From Lachnospiraceae bacterium UBA3772 (lineage in GTDB: Bacteria > Bacillota > Clostridia > Lachnospirales > Lachnospiraceae), in contig DFFQ01000040.1 in the NCBI GenBank assembly GCA_002371025.1, positions 1-60,399 of the forward strand: a stretch of 60,399 bases of DNA, read 5' to 3'. A model generated the notes under the pieces. The model made no database searches. It saw only the letters and a program-made list of their open reading frames with translations, and was not told where the DNA came from. Of the stretch, positions 22,444 through 27,994 are shown one piece after another. The translations under genes and the position numbers were made by a program. How positions within the stretch are numbered: the stretch's first letter is position 1; each line of letters starts with the position of its first letter.

Positions 22444-24000
22444 ATGGCATATAATACTAATACATACTTTATATATTTCCTTCCGGCGGTAATGCTTGTT
22501 TACATGCTGACGCCAAAGAAATATAGATATATAACGCTTCTTATTGCAAGTGGAGTGTTTTTTACACTGATAAGTAAATATTTGATCCTTTGGTGTTTGA
22601 TAACAACAGTGGTTACTTATTTTGGAGGACTTCTTATAGATCACTTCAATGTTAAGATGAAGGAGCTTCCAAAGAATGAGAAGATTGAAAAAGAAAAGCT
22701 TCAGAAAAAGGCATTTAGAATTGTATTCTTAAGTGTTTTCATATCAGTAGGAATACTTGCTTTCCTTAAATATACTCAGTTCACTGTTGAAGAGATCAAT
22801 AAGTTGTTTAAAACAACATTTTCAATTAGAAAGCTGGCAATACCTATTGGTATTTCTTTTTATACACTGCAGGCTGTGGGCTATCTTCTGGATGTTTACT
22901 GGAAGAGAATCAAGGTTGAGAAAAACTTCCTCCATGTCTTCTTATTTATGACGTTTTTCCCAACACTTATGGAAGGCCCGATTATGAGATGGGATGATGT
23001 TAAAAATCAGCTCTTTGAAGGGAATCCTATTACAGAGAAAACCTTTGCAAGGGGTGCTGTTCGTATAGGATGGGGACTTTTTAAGAGAATGCTGATTGCA
23101 GACCGACTTGATGTAATGGTTAGAACATTATTCTCAGTAAATAAACATTATGCCGGCGTGATGATTATTTTAACAGCAGTTGTAGTAACAATTCAGCTTT
23201 ATCTGGAATTCTCAGGAACAATTGATATTGTTATCGGAAGCGCTGAGTTATTTGATATCAGGCTTCCAGAGAATTTCCGTCAGCCATTCCTTTCAGAGAA
23301 TGCGGCTGAATTCTGGAGAAGATGGCACATATCACTTGGTGTATGGTTTAAGAATTATATCTTCTATCCGGTATCTACAAGCCAGATGATGAAGAAATGG
23401 AATAAGTTTGGTAAGAAACATTGTTCTAAATACTGGACAATGATAGTTACATCAGCTATAGCTCTTTTCCCTGTATGGATGTTAAATGGGCTTTGGCATG
23501 GACCTAAAGAGACATATATACTTTACGGAGTTTTTTACTTCATAGTTCTCCTGGTAGGAGAGATGTGGAAGCCAGCTGGTCAGGGAATAGCAAAGTCCCT
23601 TCATCTTGATGAAAAGGGTAAAGTTGTAAGATGGTTTAGAATAGCAAGAACCTGGATCATAATCGGTGTAGGTGAAGTGTTATTCAGAGCTGAAAGCTTC
23701 GCACAGTTTAAGGAAATGATGAGAAATCTCTTTGTATCAGATTTCTTTAGAAATATAGAACTTCATAATATGAATCTGGGACTTGATTCCGGCGATTATG
23801 CAATATGTATGCTGGGAATACTTGTTGTTGCTATTGTGGATCTTATGTTAGAGAAGAAACCTGCATTATTTGATGAGGTTCCTGATCTTCCTTTAAAAAA
23901 GAGATGGGCTATATATTATGCGCTTATCCTTGCAATAGTGTGGTTTGGAGCTTACGGAGTAGGTTATCAGCCAGTAGATCTTATATATGCAGGTTTTTAG
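22444..24000 (+). CDS. MBOAT-family O-acyltransferase (DltB/AlgI-like)
   Basis: This polytopic membrane acyltransferase (518 aa) is the likely step that moves an acyl or aminoacyl group from a cytoplasmic carrier across the membrane onto an extracellular acceptor. MBOAT hallmarks are present: the block ENAAEFWRRWHISLGVWFKN and the catalytic His in NGLWHGP (His352). About 11-12 helices are visible, with QAVGYLLDVYW and FPTLMEGPIMRWDD as in DltB/AlgI. The start is the ATG at 22444, preceded by AAGGAG; a longer in-frame reading from 22387 would run across the ribosome-binding site and the terminator. It is the first gene of a five-gene cluster (gap of 15 bp to the SGNH protein) together with a carrier protein and an adenylating enzyme, matching dlt logic rather than alginate acetylation. 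Confidence 0.88.
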   Translation: MAYNTNTYFIYFLPAVMLVYMLTPKKYRYITLLIASGVFFTLISKYLILWCLITTVVTYFGGLLIDHFNVKMKELPKNEKIEKEKLQKKAFRIVFLSVFISVGILAFLKYTQFTVEEINKLFKTTFSIRKLAIPIGISFYTLQAVGYLLDVYWKRIKVEKNFLHVFLFMTFFPTLMEGPIMRWDDVKNQLFEGNPITEKTFARGAVRIGWGLFKRMLIADRLDVMVRTLFSVNKHYAGVMIILTAVVVTIQLYLEFSGTIDIVIGSAELFDIRLPENFRQPFLSENAAEFWRRWHISLGVWFKNYIFYPVSTSQMMKKWNKFGKKHCSKYWTMIVTSAIALFPVWMLNGLWHGPKETYILYGVFYFIVLLVGEMWKPAGQGIAKSLHLDEKGKVVRWFRIARTWIIIGVGEVLFRAESFAQFKEMMRNLFVSDFFRNIELHNMNLGLDSGDYAICMLGILVVAIVDLMLEKKPALFDEVPDLPLKKRWAIYYALILAIVWFGAYGVGYQPVDLIYAGF

Positions 24001-24015
24001 CGAATTGAGGTAATA

Positions 24016-24984
24016 ATGAAAGCATTCAAAAATAAGGTAAAAAACAATTTCATATTGAGATGTATACTTTTTACATCAATACTTCTTGTTCTGCTTTATG
24101 TTCCAAGTTTCATTTTATCTCCTGAGTTTATGACAAGACATGAATTAAACCTTGGAAGAAATGAAGTATATGCAAAAGTTGCAAATGAAAAGGCAGATAC
24201 TATTGATGTGATAGTGCTTGGAGACAGCCTTAGTTATACTACAGTATCTCCAATGCAGATCTGGGAGGATTATGGATATGCAGTTTATGATGCAGGCGCT
24301 CCTGGACAAAATATTAATGAGACATTGGATGTATTAGAAGTTGCACTTAAGAAGCAGCATCCAAAGATTGCTCTTTTAGAGACAAATGAGCTTTACAGAA
24401 AAACAAAAGAAGCAGGAAAGGATTCAAGAATTGCGGAAGTAGTTTACAAGGTCTGTCCTGTATTTAAATATCACAATGTATGGAAAACTCCATTTGTTGC
24501 AAGACTTGGGGATTCATATAAGGGATATATATTTAATACAAAAGTAAAGCCTTATAATGGTGGAGCGTATCTCTTTAGTACAGAGGAAAAGAGATGTGTA
24601 CCAGAGGAAAATGAAGAAACATTTAAAAAGATTAAGAAACTCTGTGATGAAAATGGAGTTAAGCTGGTACTTTATTCAGCTCCTTCTCCAAAGTGCTATA
24701 ACATGCAAAAGATAAATGCTATTCAGGAATTTGCTGATAAGTATGGCATTGATTATATAGAACTTAATAAAGAAACAGAAAGCATTAATATAAACTGGAG
24801 TAAAGATACACGGGATAAAGGTGATCATCTAAATTCTTTTGGAACTAAAAAGACAACAGATTTTATTGCAAGAAAGATAGATTCTTATGGAATATTAGAA
24901 GACAGAAGAAATGATGATAATTTTAAAGATTGGCATGAACTTTATGAGAAATATAAAGCTGCAGAGAGGAAACATGGAATCTGA
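24016..24984 (+). CDS. SGNH-hydrolase-like, DltD-type extracellular protein
   Basis: This 322-aa protein has an N-terminal membrane anchor (about residues 13-33) and an extracytoplasmic SGNH-like domain. The nucleophile block is VIVLGDSLSYTT (Ser71). The block III-like segment is LLETNELYRK. The catalytic His is in GDHLNSFG (His271). DltD in D-alanylation systems has a comparable layout and works with DltB in the final transfer. It sits between the MBOAT gene and the PLP-decarboxylase gene (2-bp gap), so it probably works in the same pathway as acyl transferase or editing hydrolase. Overall similarity to true DltD is limited to architecture and motifs, so 'DltD-like' is a functional analogy. 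Confidence 0.75.
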   Translation: MKAFKNKVKNNFILRCILFTSILLVLLYVPSFILSPEFMTRHELNLGRNEVYAKVANEKADTIDVIVLGDSLSYTTVSPMQIWEDYGYAVYDAGAPGQNINETLDVLEVALKKQHPKIALLETNELYRKTKEAGKDSRIAEVVYKVCPVFKYHNVWKTPFVARLGDSYKGYIFNTKVKPYNGGAYLFSTEEKRCVPEENEETFKKIKKLCDENGVKLVLYSAPSPKCYNMQKINAIQEFADKYGIDYIELNKETESININWSKDTRDKGDHLNSFGTKKTTDFIARKIDSYGILEDRRNDDNFKDWHELYEKYKAAERKHGI

Positions 24985-24986
24985 TC

Positions 24987-26174
24987 ATGGAAATGAATAT
25001 TGAGAAGGCAATTGAGATTGCAAAGGAAGCAAAAAATCCATTTTATTTATTTGATTTTGATATATTTGAGGCAAGAATAAAGATGATAGAGGAAGGGCTT
25101 TGTGGCAGTGCAAAAGTCTGCTATGCCATGAAAGCAAATCCTTTTCTTACAGGAGTTGCCGCAGGTATTCTGGATAGAATTGAAGTCTGTTCATATGGGG
25201 AATATGAGATTTGCAGATATTTGAATATTCCTGCAGAGAAGCTTCTAATTTCAGGAGTATTAAAGAAAAAAGAAGACTTAGCTACTATCATAAATGAGAC
25301 TGATGGCAGATGTATTTTTACTGTAGAGTCATGGAATCAGTTCCTTCAGCTTAAGGATGCTGCAAAGGATAGAAGCATAAATATAATCATAAGACTTACT
25401 AATAAAAGTCAGTTTGGTGTAAATAAAGAAGACATCTTAGAAATGATTAAGGAATCAAAAGATGTGGCAGGTCTTAATGTTAAAGGAATCCATTATTTCT
25501 CAGGCACACAGAAGAAACATCCGGATAAGGATAAGAAAGAACTTCTTATGCTGGATGAGCTTATTAAAGAGATTAAGGAAGTTACAGGACTTGATATAGA
25601 AGAATTAGAATATGGCCCGGGAATTCCTTATTCATATTTTGAAGGCAAGGATGTGCTTCCAATGGGAGATTTTCTTGATACTATCAGCACGACAATTAAG
25701 GAAATGAATTTTAATGGCAGTGTCACCATAGAGCTTGGAAGAGCTATAGCAGCCGTTTCAGGATGCTACTGCACAAGAGTTCTTGATGTTAAGAAAAATA
25801 TAGATACTGATTATCTTATGACAGATGGTGGAATCCATCAGCTGGCTTATGACGGACAGATAAAGGGAATGTATCATCCTTTTATGGAAGTCGTAAGAAA
25901 TCATGAGAATCTTGATCCAGAAAAAGTGTGGACAGTATGCGGTTCACTTTGTACAATGAATGATGTTTTGACAGCAAATATTAAGCTTGGGGATGTCAGG
26001 GTTGGAGACGCGCTGATATTTAAAAATGCAGGAGCTTATTCATTTGCGGAAGGTATGGCATTATTCCTTTCTCATGAATTACCGGATGTATACGGTTATT
26101 CAGTTAAGGAGGGCTTAACAGTAATGAGAAAAGATGTTTTGACATATCCGTTTAATACAGTAAAAAGGAGTTAA
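24987..26174 (+). CDS. PLP-dependent amino-acid decarboxylase, fold type III (LysA/BtrK-like)
   Basis: This 395-aa enzyme has an alanine-racemase-like PLP barrel followed by the decarboxylase C-domain. The PLP lysine is in YAMKANP (Lys49). The LysA-type HxGSQ loop reads GIHYFSGTQ. The phosphate-binding Gly and Arg are in ELGRAIAAVSG. The catalytic Cys and substrate-binding Asp are in GSLCTMND, followed by NAGAYSF. LysA itself normally carries CESxD at that place, so the CTxxD form points away from housekeeping diaminopimelate decarboxylase. The butirosin enzyme BtrK, which decarboxylates glutamyl bound to a carrier protein, is a closer functional model. The gene lies directly before the carrier-protein gene (5-bp gap). 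A free-amino-acid decarboxylase feeding the adenylating enzyme is the alternative. Confidence 0.8.
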   Translation: MEMNIEKAIEIAKEAKNPFYLFDFDIFEARIKMIEEGLCGSAKVCYAMKANPFLTGVAAGILDRIEVCSYGEYEICRYLNIPAEKLLISGVLKKKEDLATIINETDGRCIFTVESWNQFLQLKDAAKDRSINIIIRLTNKSQFGVNKEDILEMIKESKDVAGLNVKGIHYFSGTQKKHPDKDKKELLMLDELIKEIKEVTGLDIEELEYGPGIPYSYFEGKDVLPMGDFLDTISTTIKEMNFNGSVTIELGRAIAAVSGCYCTRVLDVKKNIDTDYLMTDGGIHQLAYDGQIKGMYHPFMEVVRNHENLDPEKVWTVCGSLCTMNDVLTANIKLGDVRVGDALIFKNAGAYSFAEGMALFLSHELPDVYGYSVKEGLTVMRKDVLTYPFNTVKRS

Positions 26175-26179
26175 TTACA

Positions 26180-26413
26180 ATGGAAACAAGAGAACAGATT
26201 ATTGAGATTTTAAGCGAGATTGATGACAGTATTGATTATGAAAATGAGGAAAGATTAGTTGATGATCATCTCCTTGATTCATTTGGTATCATCTCACTGG
26301 TTGCAGAATTAGAAGATAACTTTGATATTCAGATTGGCGCAGAAGAGATGATTCCTGAAAATTTCAATTCAGTTGATGCACTTGCTGCAATGGTAGAGCG
26401 TCTCGCTGAATAG
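26180..26413 (+). CDS. Acyl/aminoacyl carrier protein (DltC-like)
   Basis: This 77-aa acidic carrier protein has the phosphopantetheine attachment site DSFGIISL (Ser34), preceded by DDHLLDSFG as in DltC and peptidyl carrier proteins. Four helices are predictable. It would carry the activated group as a thioester from the adenylating enzyme to the decarboxylase and/or the MBOAT protein. It follows the decarboxylase gene by 5 bp and precedes the adenylating enzyme by 48 bp. Fatty-acid ACP is unlikely because no fatty-acid synthesis gene is nearby and the Ser motif lacks the DSLD of AcpP. Confidence 0.87.
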   Translation: METREQIIEILSEIDDSIDYENEERLVDDHLLDSFGIISLVAELEDNFDIQIGAEEMIPENFNSVDALAAMVERLAE

Positions 26414-26461
26414 TATTTAAATAAATATCTTATAGCATGACTATAAGAAAGAAGTGGCAAT

Positions 26462-27994
26462 ATGAAAGAGAATTTAATTCAGATATTTGAAAAAACAGTA
26501 AATGATTATCCTTCTAATATAGCAGCCATCGATCCTGAAAGAAAACTAAATTATCAGGAATTAAAAGATTTAGCTGTAAGAATGGGTAAGAATATTAGAA
26601 AGAAAGCATGTCTGGATAAAGAAGAAACAGGTTTTCCAGTAGCAATCTTTACAGAAAAGAATATTAATCTTTATGGAGCAGTTCTTGGAACAATGTATGC
26701 AGGAGGTTTCTATGTATATATAAATCCAGAACAGACTGTTTCAAGGATTAATAAGATAATTGAAGTCCTTGATCCTCGTATTATCATTTATTCAGAGGAT
26801 TTAAAGGAAAAGTTTGATGAAACAGGATACGAAGGTGCTTCTGTTTCGATGGAAGAGATAGCTTCTGATTCATGCAGTTTAGAAGATGATATGTGTTTAT
26901 CAACTTACTGCGTAAACAGGGAAAATCCTATTTATGGCATATTTACCTCTGGTTCGACAGGTACACCTAAGTGTGTACTTGTAAGTCAGGGTGCAGTTAT
27001 AGATTTTATTAATCATTTTATAAAAGCTTTTGCTTTTGATCCCTCAGATGTTATCGCAAATCAGGCTCCATTTGACTTTGATGTATCCATTAAGGATATA
27101 TTCACAGCTCTTACAACTGGAGCAGCCCTTCTCCTAATTCCACGAGATTACTTTACTCAACCCCCTAGACTCGTGGACTATATATGCGATAACCATGCAA
27201 CAACCTTAACATGGGCCGTTTCGGCATTATGTATCATTTCCGGAATGAAAGGACTCGATTATCGTCTCCCTACTGATTTAAAAAGAGTTCTTTTCAGCGG
27301 AGAGGTTATGCCGACAAAACAGTTAATGATATGGCAGCAGGCCCTCCCTTCTGTAACATATGTTAACCTTTATGGGCCTTCAGAAATTACCTGTAACTGC
27401 ACCTACTATATTATAGATCATAAGGTGGAGGCTGGGGAAAAGCTTCCGCTTGGTAAAGTTTTTGATGGTAGAAAAGTTGTTCTTTTAGATGAAAAAGGAC
27501 AGGAGATAACAGAGAAAAATGTAAGCGGAGAAATCGCTGTAAGCGGTGAATCCCTTGCAATTGGATATTATCATAATGAAGAAGAGACAAAGAAACATTT
27601 CCAGGAAAGAAATGTAGATGGAAGTTCTATAAGAACTTATCTTACAGGCGATGTAGCATTTATTGCAGACGATGGGGAAATGTACTTTGCAGGAAGAAAA
27701 GATTTCCAGATCAAGCATATGGGTCACAGGATCGAGCTTGAGGAGATTGAAAGAACTATAGGAACATATGACGGCGTTGAAAGATGCTGTGCAAGATATG
27801 ATGAAGAAAAGAGCAGAATCTATCTTTATTATACTGGCGAAAGAGATGGAAGAGAACTTCATGTTGAAGTAAAGAAGAGACTTCCACTTTATATGGTTCC
27901 TAACAAATTCATTCATGTTACAGATTTTATTCTCAACAAGAATGGTAAGATTGACCGCAAATTATTGGAAACCCTTCCAGTAGTTTCAAAATAA
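26462..27994 (+). CDS. Amino-acid adenylating enzyme (DltA-like, AMP-binding)
   Basis: This stand-alone adenylation domain (510 aa) activates an amino or carboxylic acid with ATP and loads the adjacent carrier protein. Core motifs are FTSGSTGTPK (A3, about residue 161), FDFDVSIKDIF (A4), NLYGPSE (A5, about 302), YLTGDVA and GRKDFQIKHMGHRIEL (A7/A8), and NGKIDRK with the catalytic Lys near 496 (A10). In the position where DltA proteins usually read FCGE, a Cys linked to D-alanine selectivity, this protein reads FSGE, so its substrate may differ from D-Ala. Nucleotides about 27,120-27,400 are richer in C (CCC, CTC codons) than the flanks, which may mark a recombined segment over the substrate-pocket region. 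Family certain; substrate unknown. Confidence 0.9.
   Translation: MKENLIQIFEKTVNDYPSNIAAIDPERKLNYQELKDLAVRMGKNIRKKACLDKEETGFPVAIFTEKNINLYGAVLGTMYAGGFYVYINPEQTVSRINKIIEVLDPRIIIYSEDLKEKFDETGYEGASVSMEEIASDSCSLEDDMCLSTYCVNRENPIYGIFTSGSTGTPKCVLVSQGAVIDFINHFIKAFAFDPSDVIANQAPFDFDVSIKDIFTALTTGAALLLIPRDYFTQPPRLVDYICDNHATTLTWAVSALCIISGMKGLDYRLPTDLKRVLFSGEVMPTKQLMIWQQALPSVTYVNLYGPSEITCNCTYYIIDHKVEAGEKLPLGKVFDGRKVVLLDEKGQEITEKNVSGEIAVSGESLAIGYYHNEEETKKHFQERNVDGSSIRTYLTGDVAFIADDGEMYFAGRKDFQIKHMGHRIELEEIERTIGTYDGVERCCARYDEEKSRIYLYYTGERDGRELHVEVKKRLPLYMVPNKFIHVTDFILNKNGKIDRKLLETLPVVSK

Follow-up and report, generated by a model that had tools for sequence, protein, structure and literature searches.

What would an operon built like dlt place on the cell surface when it also encodes a decarboxylase? 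The question is raised by five close-packed open reading frames (ORFs) on the + strand at positions 22444-27994 of the window, that is, the whole 60,399-nucleotide stretch of contig DFFQ01000040.1 (assembly GCA_002371025.1) of Lachnospiraceae bacterium UBA3772 analyzed here. D-Ala esters on teichoic acids shape cationic-peptide resistance and host recognition in Firmicutes. The first-pass annotation, made from the sequence alone, had described the cluster as a Dlt-like cassette with an added pyridoxal 5'-phosphate (PLP) decarboxylase, exporting an amine group other than D-Ala. This interpretation stands in outline, through the co-occurrence of the genes, the identity of the decarboxylase, and the adenylation pocket, and its export half has been corrected. 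With moderate confidence, we read the cluster as a carrier-fed envelope-acylation cassette with on-line decarboxylation, by which an acidic amino acid would become a cationic omega-aminoacyl ester on a polymer. The gene order is MBOAT-SGNH-DC-ACP-ADL (DC, fold-III PLP decarboxylase; ACP, carrier; ADL, amino-acid adenylating enzyme), with intergenic gaps of 15, 2, 5, and 48 bases:

22444..24000, + strand: MBOAT acyltransferase, 518 aa (PF03062; match to DltB structures, E 2e-21)
23497-23499, + strand: His352 of the MBOAT
23980-23997, + strand: C-terminal LIYAGF acyl-tyrosine motif of the MBOAT (Tyr515)
24016..24984, + strand: predicted membrane-anchored extracytoplasmic SGNH protein, 322 aa (AlphaFold model, conserved residues)
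24226-24228, + strand: Ser71, in the GDS of the SGNH protein
24826-24828, + strand: His271 of the SGNH protein
24987..26174, + strand: fold-III PLP decarboxylase (DC), 395 aa (PF02784, PF00278; BtrK best by sequence and by fold)
25131-25133, + strand: Lys49 of the DC
25950-25952, + strand: Cys322 of the DC
26180..26413, + strand: phosphopantetheine carrier protein, 77 aa (PF00550)
26279-26281, + strand: Ser34 of the carrier, within LLDSFG
26462..27994, + strand: amino-acid adenylating enzyme (ADL), 510 aa (PF00501), with pocket residues D207 V208 K211 T250 W251 L277 S279 L303 C311 N312 K496
27092-27094, + strand: Lys211 of the ADL

Pfam cut-offs are passed by the MBOAT, DC, carrier, and ADL, narrowly by the carrier (22.4 against 20.8 bits), and curated NCBIfam cut-offs are reached by none of the five cassette proteins. 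For the MBOAT, alignment favors a start at 22444 over 22387. The five-family cluster and the residues named in the first-pass annotation (His352, Lys49, Cys322 of CTMND, Ser34, and FSGE) were confirmed in every detail.

Relatives of the DC (E <= 1e-30) were found in 49 of 250 genomes of the same family, the own genome included and each from a different genus; in G160, the sole other member of the same genus within this family sample, the DC was not found. Of 12 congeners in a second sample, 6 carried a cassette-type DC, accompanied in the short stretches fetched by the carrier in 6/6 and by the ADL in 5/6. At the level of the phylum, 7 of 398 genomes matched at E <= 1e-25, again with the own genome included; the full cassette occurs in two loci outside the family (L129 and L130) and ADL-DC-ACP in the family member L131, while three weaker matches (L132-L134) had no partner by the cassette profiles. 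Extibacter muris likewise has a DC relative. Together with six named records, the window, the 49 family loci, and three phylum-sample loci make up 59 DC loci. All ORFs in the fetched loci, called by a mechanical scan that possibly missed short genes, were compared with profiles that were seeded with the five cassette proteins of the window and built on the same loci, and the resulting co-occurrence counts are raw, carrying no p-value, over sampled genomes that are not independent. The ADL lies within 300 bp of the DC in 56/59 loci; the carrier was near the DC in 55, the MBOAT in 47, the SGNH protein in 46, and all four partners in 42 (33/49 in the family sample alone). Given this linkage, the DC as a chance neighbor was rejected, and the conserved co-occurrence of the five families that had been proposed as a check in other genomes is borne out. 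The commonest gene order is ADL-DC-ACP-MBOAT-SGNH, the order of the window being unusual. Among the 17 incomplete DC loci, L048, L049, L073, L087, and L090 reach a contig end nearby, and in L060, L063, L081, L082, L085, L089, and L131 the MBOAT/SGNH genes are absent within 4.5 kb despite continuing sequence.

The pocket of the ADL separates the cassette from D-alanylation. At the positions of GrsA 235, 236, 239, 278, 279, 299, 301, 322, 330, 331, and 517, mapped by eye onto the GrsA sequence, the window enzyme reads D V K T W L S L C N K, and the D, V, K, W, S, C, and N are near-invariant across 52 cassette ADLs (48-52/52 each), position 239 being Lys in 50 of them and Arg in two. The same positions read D L M V S L C T V A K in 6/10 DltAs. 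Ser279 of FSGE is present in 51/52 cassette ADLs, whereas 9/10 DltAs have Cys at this position. The DltA pocket residues reported in PMC11253843 (D197, L198, C268/269, T297, and V301) fit the aligned DltA columns D, L, C, T, and V, and the cassette ADLs do not have the D-Ala pocket that marks DltA (the Leu following Asp, Met, the Cys in FCGE, and Val). Against the DltA model TIGR01734 the ADL scores 278 bits, the cut-off being 560. The proposal of an adenylation pocket unlike that of DltA, with FSGE for FCGE, thus holds for 52 cassette ADLs compared with 10 DltAs. The association of this pocket with the decarboxylase was followed over a wider set, as an ADL search matched 100/250 family-sample genomes at E <= 1e-70 and gave 119 ADL ORFs of more than 350 aa, which were assigned to pocket classes by eye. 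Class A (DVK..S.CN) comprises 55 ADLs in the family sample, 43 with a DC, 4 with a formyltransferase, and 8 with neither; a small class A2 of three ADLs, with IAR in place of DVK and without the Asp at 235, has a DC beside two, and in the genome of the third (L230) the DC, carrier, MBOAT, and SGNH protein stand on another contig (L093). The other pocket classes total 61 ADLs, with a DC at one (L079). With all loci pooled, the DC stands beside 52/64 class A ADLs, and the possibility, raised at the outset, that the decarboxylase would be absent from most orthologous clusters is therefore not what was found.

The same evidence bears on ordinary D-alanylation in which the PLP enzyme would be a racemase supplying D-Ala. 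Some relatives of the DC are named alanine racemase in public records, and the DC itself matches PF01168 over the cut-off (30 against 24 bits). However, it also has the decarboxylase domain PF00278 at its C-terminus, the catalytic Cys, and a BtrK-like fold, so that its identification as an alanine racemase was rejected; the DltA pocket for D-Ala, with its Cys, is missing from the ADL; and dlt loci and DC loci occur apart. DltD (PF04914) is over the cut-off in 13/250 family-sample genomes, three of them weakly, at 14 places; of the 10 such dlt loci that were fetched, none contains a DC-type gene. Both systems are carried by G082, G090, and G152 (with a strong DltD match), and a DC co-occurs with a weak DltD match in G112. 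The racemase explanation is accordingly regarded as highly improbable, and plain D-alanylation was rejected on the Dlt model cut-offs missed, the absent DltA pocket, and the 10 dlt loci. No PF04914 match was found in the own genome, an assembly 87% complete, so that the absence of a canonical dlt operon is uncertain.

The decarboxylase is best matched among PDB sequences by BtrK (E 2e-25), and a fold search with its model (pLDDT 93.6) again ranked BtrK first (TM 0.88, 23% identity), with Methanocaldococcus jannaschii LysA a close second. The butirosin trio BtrJ-BtrI-BtrK, in which BtrJ is an ATP-grasp ligase, shares with the cassette a carrier and a fold-III PLP decarboxylase of nearly identical fold; it differs in the low identity between BtrK and the DC, in making an antibiotic side chain and not an envelope group, and in that the cassette uses an AMP-forming enzyme. 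An AMP-forming ligase and a fold-III decarboxylase are also used in one locus in exosortase-associated systems. The corresponding exosortase-A-associated models (TIGR03098 ligase, TIGR03099 decarboxylase) belong to families that also match the cassette, but far below the cut-off (157 against 592 and 149 against 478 bits), and the exosortase link comes from the model names. Among cassette DCs, Lys49 is present in 57/57 and Cys322 of CTMND in 56/57, with D326, Y288, T323, and E355 conserved too. In a FastTree tree on trimmed columns (the method of all trees here), in which three PDB sequences are represented by their aligned stretches only, cassette and congener DCs form one split (support 0.85) without BtrK, SbnH, LysA, and NspC. 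NspC was rejected as the identity of the DC, given this split, an NspC of its own elsewhere in the genome (contig C128, 457 bits against a cut-off of 409), and the absence of TIGR01047 from the five NCBIfam matches of the DC.

Whether the DC could be a dedicated diaminopimelate (DAP) decarboxylase, with the cassette exporting lysine, was considered at this point. The lysA model TIGR01048 tops its NCBIfam matches, and lysyl groups are a known cationic decoration of envelopes. The score of 151 bits is nevertheless under the cut-off of 298, and the genome contains a separate LysA-like gene at 278 bits, just below that cut-off. Residues defining the substrates of fold-III decarboxylases, including the DAP-binding Arg R343, are described in PMC7857480. 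R343 was equated with the Arg of the LysA RPxxY motif by position and not by number; there, 56/57 cassette DCs have Tyr288, while 19/19 LysA-model hits have Arg. The residue after the catalytic Cys is Thr or Ser in 56/57 cassette DCs, Glu in 18/19 LysA-model hits, and Thr in BtrK and SbnH; the LysA-model hits are the 19 best for TIGR01048 from 21 genomes, and 5 of these hits pass the cut-off. The DC thus has other residues at the two DAP-recognition positions that were compared, and the Lys in the ADL pocket would be expected to repel lysine. Export of lysine is very unlikely in our judgment, and LysA was rejected as the identity of the DC on its score, these residues, and the separate gene. 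The DC is therefore distinct from LysA and NspC, as had been claimed, with BtrK its nearest solved structure; a genome with no other lysA, which would have spoken for a LysA role, is so far not what is seen.

The chemistry of PLP decarboxylation restricts the order of events. It needs a free amine and a carboxylate on one carbon, so that an alpha-linked thioester cannot be decarboxylated; activation of the side-chain carboxyl leaves the alpha-amine and alpha-carboxylate free, and decarboxylation then becomes possible on the carrier. Of the first-pass suggestion that decarboxylation takes place on or before the carrier, what is chemically allowed is a side-chain-linked carrier substrate or a reaction before loading. 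The idea that the DC releases a free diamine for attachment to the carrier was dropped, as adenylation needs a carboxyl and diamines have none. In the proposed mechanism, the substrate of the ADL would be an acidic amino acid, with Asp and Glu the likeliest; its side-chain carboxyl would be adenylated and then attached to the phosphopantetheine arm at Ser34 of the carrier, while Lys211 would bind the free alpha-carboxylate. An acidic partner would suit Lys211, as we take Lys239 to be the partner of an acidic substrate group in the glutamate codes of nonribosomal peptide synthetases. The DC would then form an aldimine with the free alpha-amine and remove the alpha-carboxylate, presumably as in BtrK, and its product would be a beta-alanyl (from Asp) or gamma-aminobutyryl (from Glu; GABA) thioester with a free primary amine.

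In the vicenistatin pathway, VinL is the carrier and VinO the decarboxylase. The VinN-VinL-VinO set resembles the logic proposed for the cassette, in that the AMP-forming VinN activates an Asp derivative, 3-methylaspartate, as a beta-amino acid (PMC11253843). It differs in supplying a macrolactam starter unit, with no export, and in the beta13-beta14 loop of VinN, which is shortened by one residue and which the cassette ADL does not share. The window enzyme has the Asp at 235 and the bulkier residues at 236 and 301 (D207, V208, and S279) that PMC11253843 gives as VinN-type features. Because Asp235 binds the beta-amine in VinN (PMC11253843), Asp as substrate and beta-alanyl as product are slightly favored over Glu and GABA by this analogy.

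The alternative order, in which the DC would first convert free Glu to GABA or free Asp to beta-alanine and the ADL would activate the product, leads to the same exported group. The adjacency of DC and ADL accords with either order, and the Asp at GrsA 235 is a possible anchor for the amine. However, the near-invariant Lys211 would be expected to repel an amine and to want an acid partner, and the nearest structure, BtrK, works on a carrier-bound substrate, decarboxylating Glu on the carrier BtrI (PMC7857480). No basic residue stands at the compared FigC/SbnH distal-carboxylate sites either. FigC Arg387 is predicted to bind distal carboxylates (PMC7857480); at this position, located by counting along the SbnH sequence, 56/57 cassette DCs have Glu355, 20/20 LysA rows Met, and BtrK Phe, and Glu355 here disfavors a free distal carboxylate. 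The window DC is also without a loop of about 14-15 residues (between Arg136 and Gln142) present in BtrK, SbnH, and LysA, the cassette consensus being equally short. Judged from these residues, the pocket appears to offer no binding place to an amino acid or carboxylate in distal position and would suit a thioester-linked substrate. Decarboxylation before loading is consequently considered unlikely, although it is the strongest of the competing explanations, and decarboxylation on the carrier is preferred.

On the export side, the MBOAT His352 is invariant in 21/21 aligned MBOATs, 4 of them DltBs. In PatA the acyl group is held on the Tyr of a C-terminal FXYXXF motif; in Dlt this part falls to DltX, a microprotein of its own (PMC12148441). 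A relaxed version of the acyl-Tyr motif is terminal in 104/109 MBOATs scoring above 250 bits (fetched loci, those of other ADL classes included) and in 0/10 DltBs. The window MBOAT scores 139 bits on the DltB model TIGR04091 (cut-off 375) and the carrier 41.6 bits on the DltC model PRK05087 (cut-off 68). For the SGNH protein, Pfam gave no match, the PDB sequence search nothing significant (best E 0.79), and the DltD models PF04914 and TIGR04092 no match. In its AlphaFold model (pLDDT 89), the fold corresponds to that of SGNH/GDSL hydrolases (best E 2.7e-6, TM to query ~0.4), and an N-terminal helix at residues 2-33 reads as a membrane anchor; G69, S71, and H271 are invariant or nearly so across its relatives. 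The PatA-PatB pair shares with the cassette the invariant MBOAT His, the C-terminal acyl-Tyr motif, and an SGNH partner with a catalytic Ser (PMC12148441), but PatA uses acetyl-CoA, whereas the likely donor in the cassette is the loaded carrier. The linked carrier itself suggests a donor other than acyl-CoA. The MBOAT is, as far as its sequence tells, likely PatA-like in its acyl-Tyr shuttle, yet paired with a carrier in place of acyl-CoA. By homology, Tyr515 of the MBOAT would receive the carrier-bound acyl group, and the SGNH protein would then transfer it via Ser71 to a hydroxyl of an extracellular polymer, and the outcome would be a cationic omega-aminoacyl ester instead of D-Ala.

Of the Dlt-like export proposed by the first-pass annotation, the MBOAT and SGNH pair is retained; Dlt proper is not, as the MBOAT has its own PatA-like motif and the SGNH protein is no DltD by family model. 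The cassette shares with Dlt an adenylating enzyme, a carrier, an MBOAT, and an SGNH-type protein in one operon, as well as the acyl route from carrier to MBOAT to extracellular transferase. It differs by the added decarboxylase, another ADL pocket, the acyl-Tyr motif carried by the MBOAT itself, and the lack of a PF04914 DltD, and its proteins fall below every matching Dlt model cut-off.

The own genome encodes one protein of PF00884, the family of LtaS, and PF04464 glycerophosphotransferase homologues, so that teichoic-type acceptors are possible. Alternatively, the acceptor might be a secreted or lipid-linked small glycoconjugate and not a wall polymer, with loading and decarboxylation unchanged. 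This would agree with the lack of a consistently linked polymer synthesis gene, and with several loci, such as L081, L082, and L089, in which ADL-DC-ACP occurs without a nearby MBOAT/SGNH pair. However, the MBOAT and SGNH genes accompany the DC in the majority of the 59 loci, as counted above (47 and 46), and the MBOAT-SGNH pairs of PMC12148441 acylate envelope polymers. A glycoconjugate acceptor is thus unlikely, and a surface polymer remains the preferred one.

Several observations weigh against a cassette for side-chain loading, carrier-bound decarboxylation, and export to a polymer. The MBOAT is missing within 4.5 kb in 12/59 DC loci and the SGNH protein in 13/59, some of them at contig ends. 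No polymer gene consistently linked to the cassette was seen when neighbors were clustered (up to 10 genes on each side, most of them unannotated). There is no DC beside 12/64 class A ADLs, and the class A clade has weak support (0.25), rising to 0.98 when its four nearest neighbors are included. Lys211 is shared by class B ADLs (DAKC and the like), where a DC is present with 1/27. The Asp at GrsA 235 is kept in 50/52 ADLs and, with no gap in columns 309-318 aligned with DltA, the shortened loop of the VinN type (PMC11253843) is not seen; ordinary alpha-carboxyl activation is compatible with the sequence. In the decarboxylase, Glu355 could also bind a distal amine, and in the tree the cassette DCs stand about as far from BtrK as from SbnH and M. 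jannaschii LysA (mean distances 4.39-4.41).

The class A cassettes without a decarboxylase lead to the wider family, which is drawn here from pocket letters and gene neighbors only. Among the eight class A ADLs with neither a DC nor a formyltransferase, L236 stands at a contig end, and the DC of its genome is on another contig (L048); the genomes of L204, L176, and the formyltransferase locus L170 have a DC in another cassette. The formyltransferases stand beside the carrier in class A cassettes without a DC:

L166, 2-850: PF00551 formyltransferase
L167, 3448-4302: PF00551 formyltransferase
L168, 7556-8440: PF00551 formyltransferase
L170, 7422-8303: PF00551 formyltransferase

In 3/4 of these loci the formyltransferase lies exactly between carrier and ADL, the usual place of the DC, and the four fall within a subclade of 11 ADLs accompanied by 4 formyltransferases, 2 DCs, and, in 5 cases, neither. 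Class B is marked by another neighbor, as a protein with Ig-like and transglutaminase-like domains occurs near 22/29 class B ADLs against 1/55 of class A (L066:10604-11644); the class B total is 29 here and 27 in the count of DCs given above because L223 and L224 (code DAK...V) were labeled other in one count and class B in the second. Examples in class B are L180, L185, L188, L191, L193, L195, L197, L199, and L201. Many of these transglutaminase-like proteins have a strongly hydrophobic N-terminal stretch, and loose triad patterns match only some of them. At L079 (7312-10656), the DC beside a class B ADL continues in one 1114-codon frame into a linker, a hydrophobic stretch, and Ig-like and transglutaminase domains, which may be an assembly error or else a true fusion by which the enzyme is tethered at the membrane. 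L220, L226, L233, L234, and L235 are single ADLs (DIFFWWALLDK or DIYFWWALLDK) with a carrier, and only L233 has an MBOAT within 5 kb.

We tentatively suggest, as a possibility well short of probable, that Lachnospiraceae could hold a large unrecognized radiation of MBOAT-SGNH systems fed by carriers, with the cassette as one member, and that in these systems one acidic aminoacyl-carrier intermediate might be tailored by exchangeable enzymes ahead of its export. Under this tentative scheme, a decarboxylase would give a cationic group, a formyltransferase an anionic group, and neither enzyme a zwitterionic one; the other pocket classes would carry other groups, and class B would be accompanied by an apparently extracytoplasmic transglutaminase-like protein. 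If this were true, the enzyme placed between ADL and carrier would set the charge of the surface esters.

Among the sampled genomes of this family, a major one in gut and rumen, the DC is commoner than DltD (49/250 against 13/250), and many family members may therefore carry on their surface another amine that has gone unrecorded. The proposed chemistry would unite decarboxylation on a carrier with export by an MBOAT-SGNH pair, each a module already known, and their conserved joining is the new element. It would also correct annotations of relatives as alanine racemase or diaminopimelate decarboxylase. The literature searches made, over open-licence papers, found no description of this cassette.

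In the window, the cassette is flanked upstream by a DUF624 protein and downstream by a B12/radical-SAM protein; of the compared loci, the near-identical L004 and L005 alone share these neighbors. Scans for promoters and terminators yielded site counts no higher than those of shuffles (28 against 25.8 and 2 against 3.2). Elsewhere in the own genome, L125 (contig C129, 8024-13697) is a second MBOAT-carrier-ligase cluster with an SGNH-like protein, its ligase being of the acyl-CoA-ligase type with an extra C-terminal part that is nitroreductase-like by eye. L113 (contig C120, 819-3168), on a contig of 3475 bases in which no carrier or ligase was found, has a third MBOAT together with an SGNH protein that is weakly DltD-like (21 against 150 bits). 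At L046 (6492-8514), Pfam identifies an OmpR-type response regulator and a histidine kinase after the SGNH gene, which suggests regulated expression; genes of similar size follow the SGNH gene in L050, L051, L052, and L077, the Pfam check covering L046.

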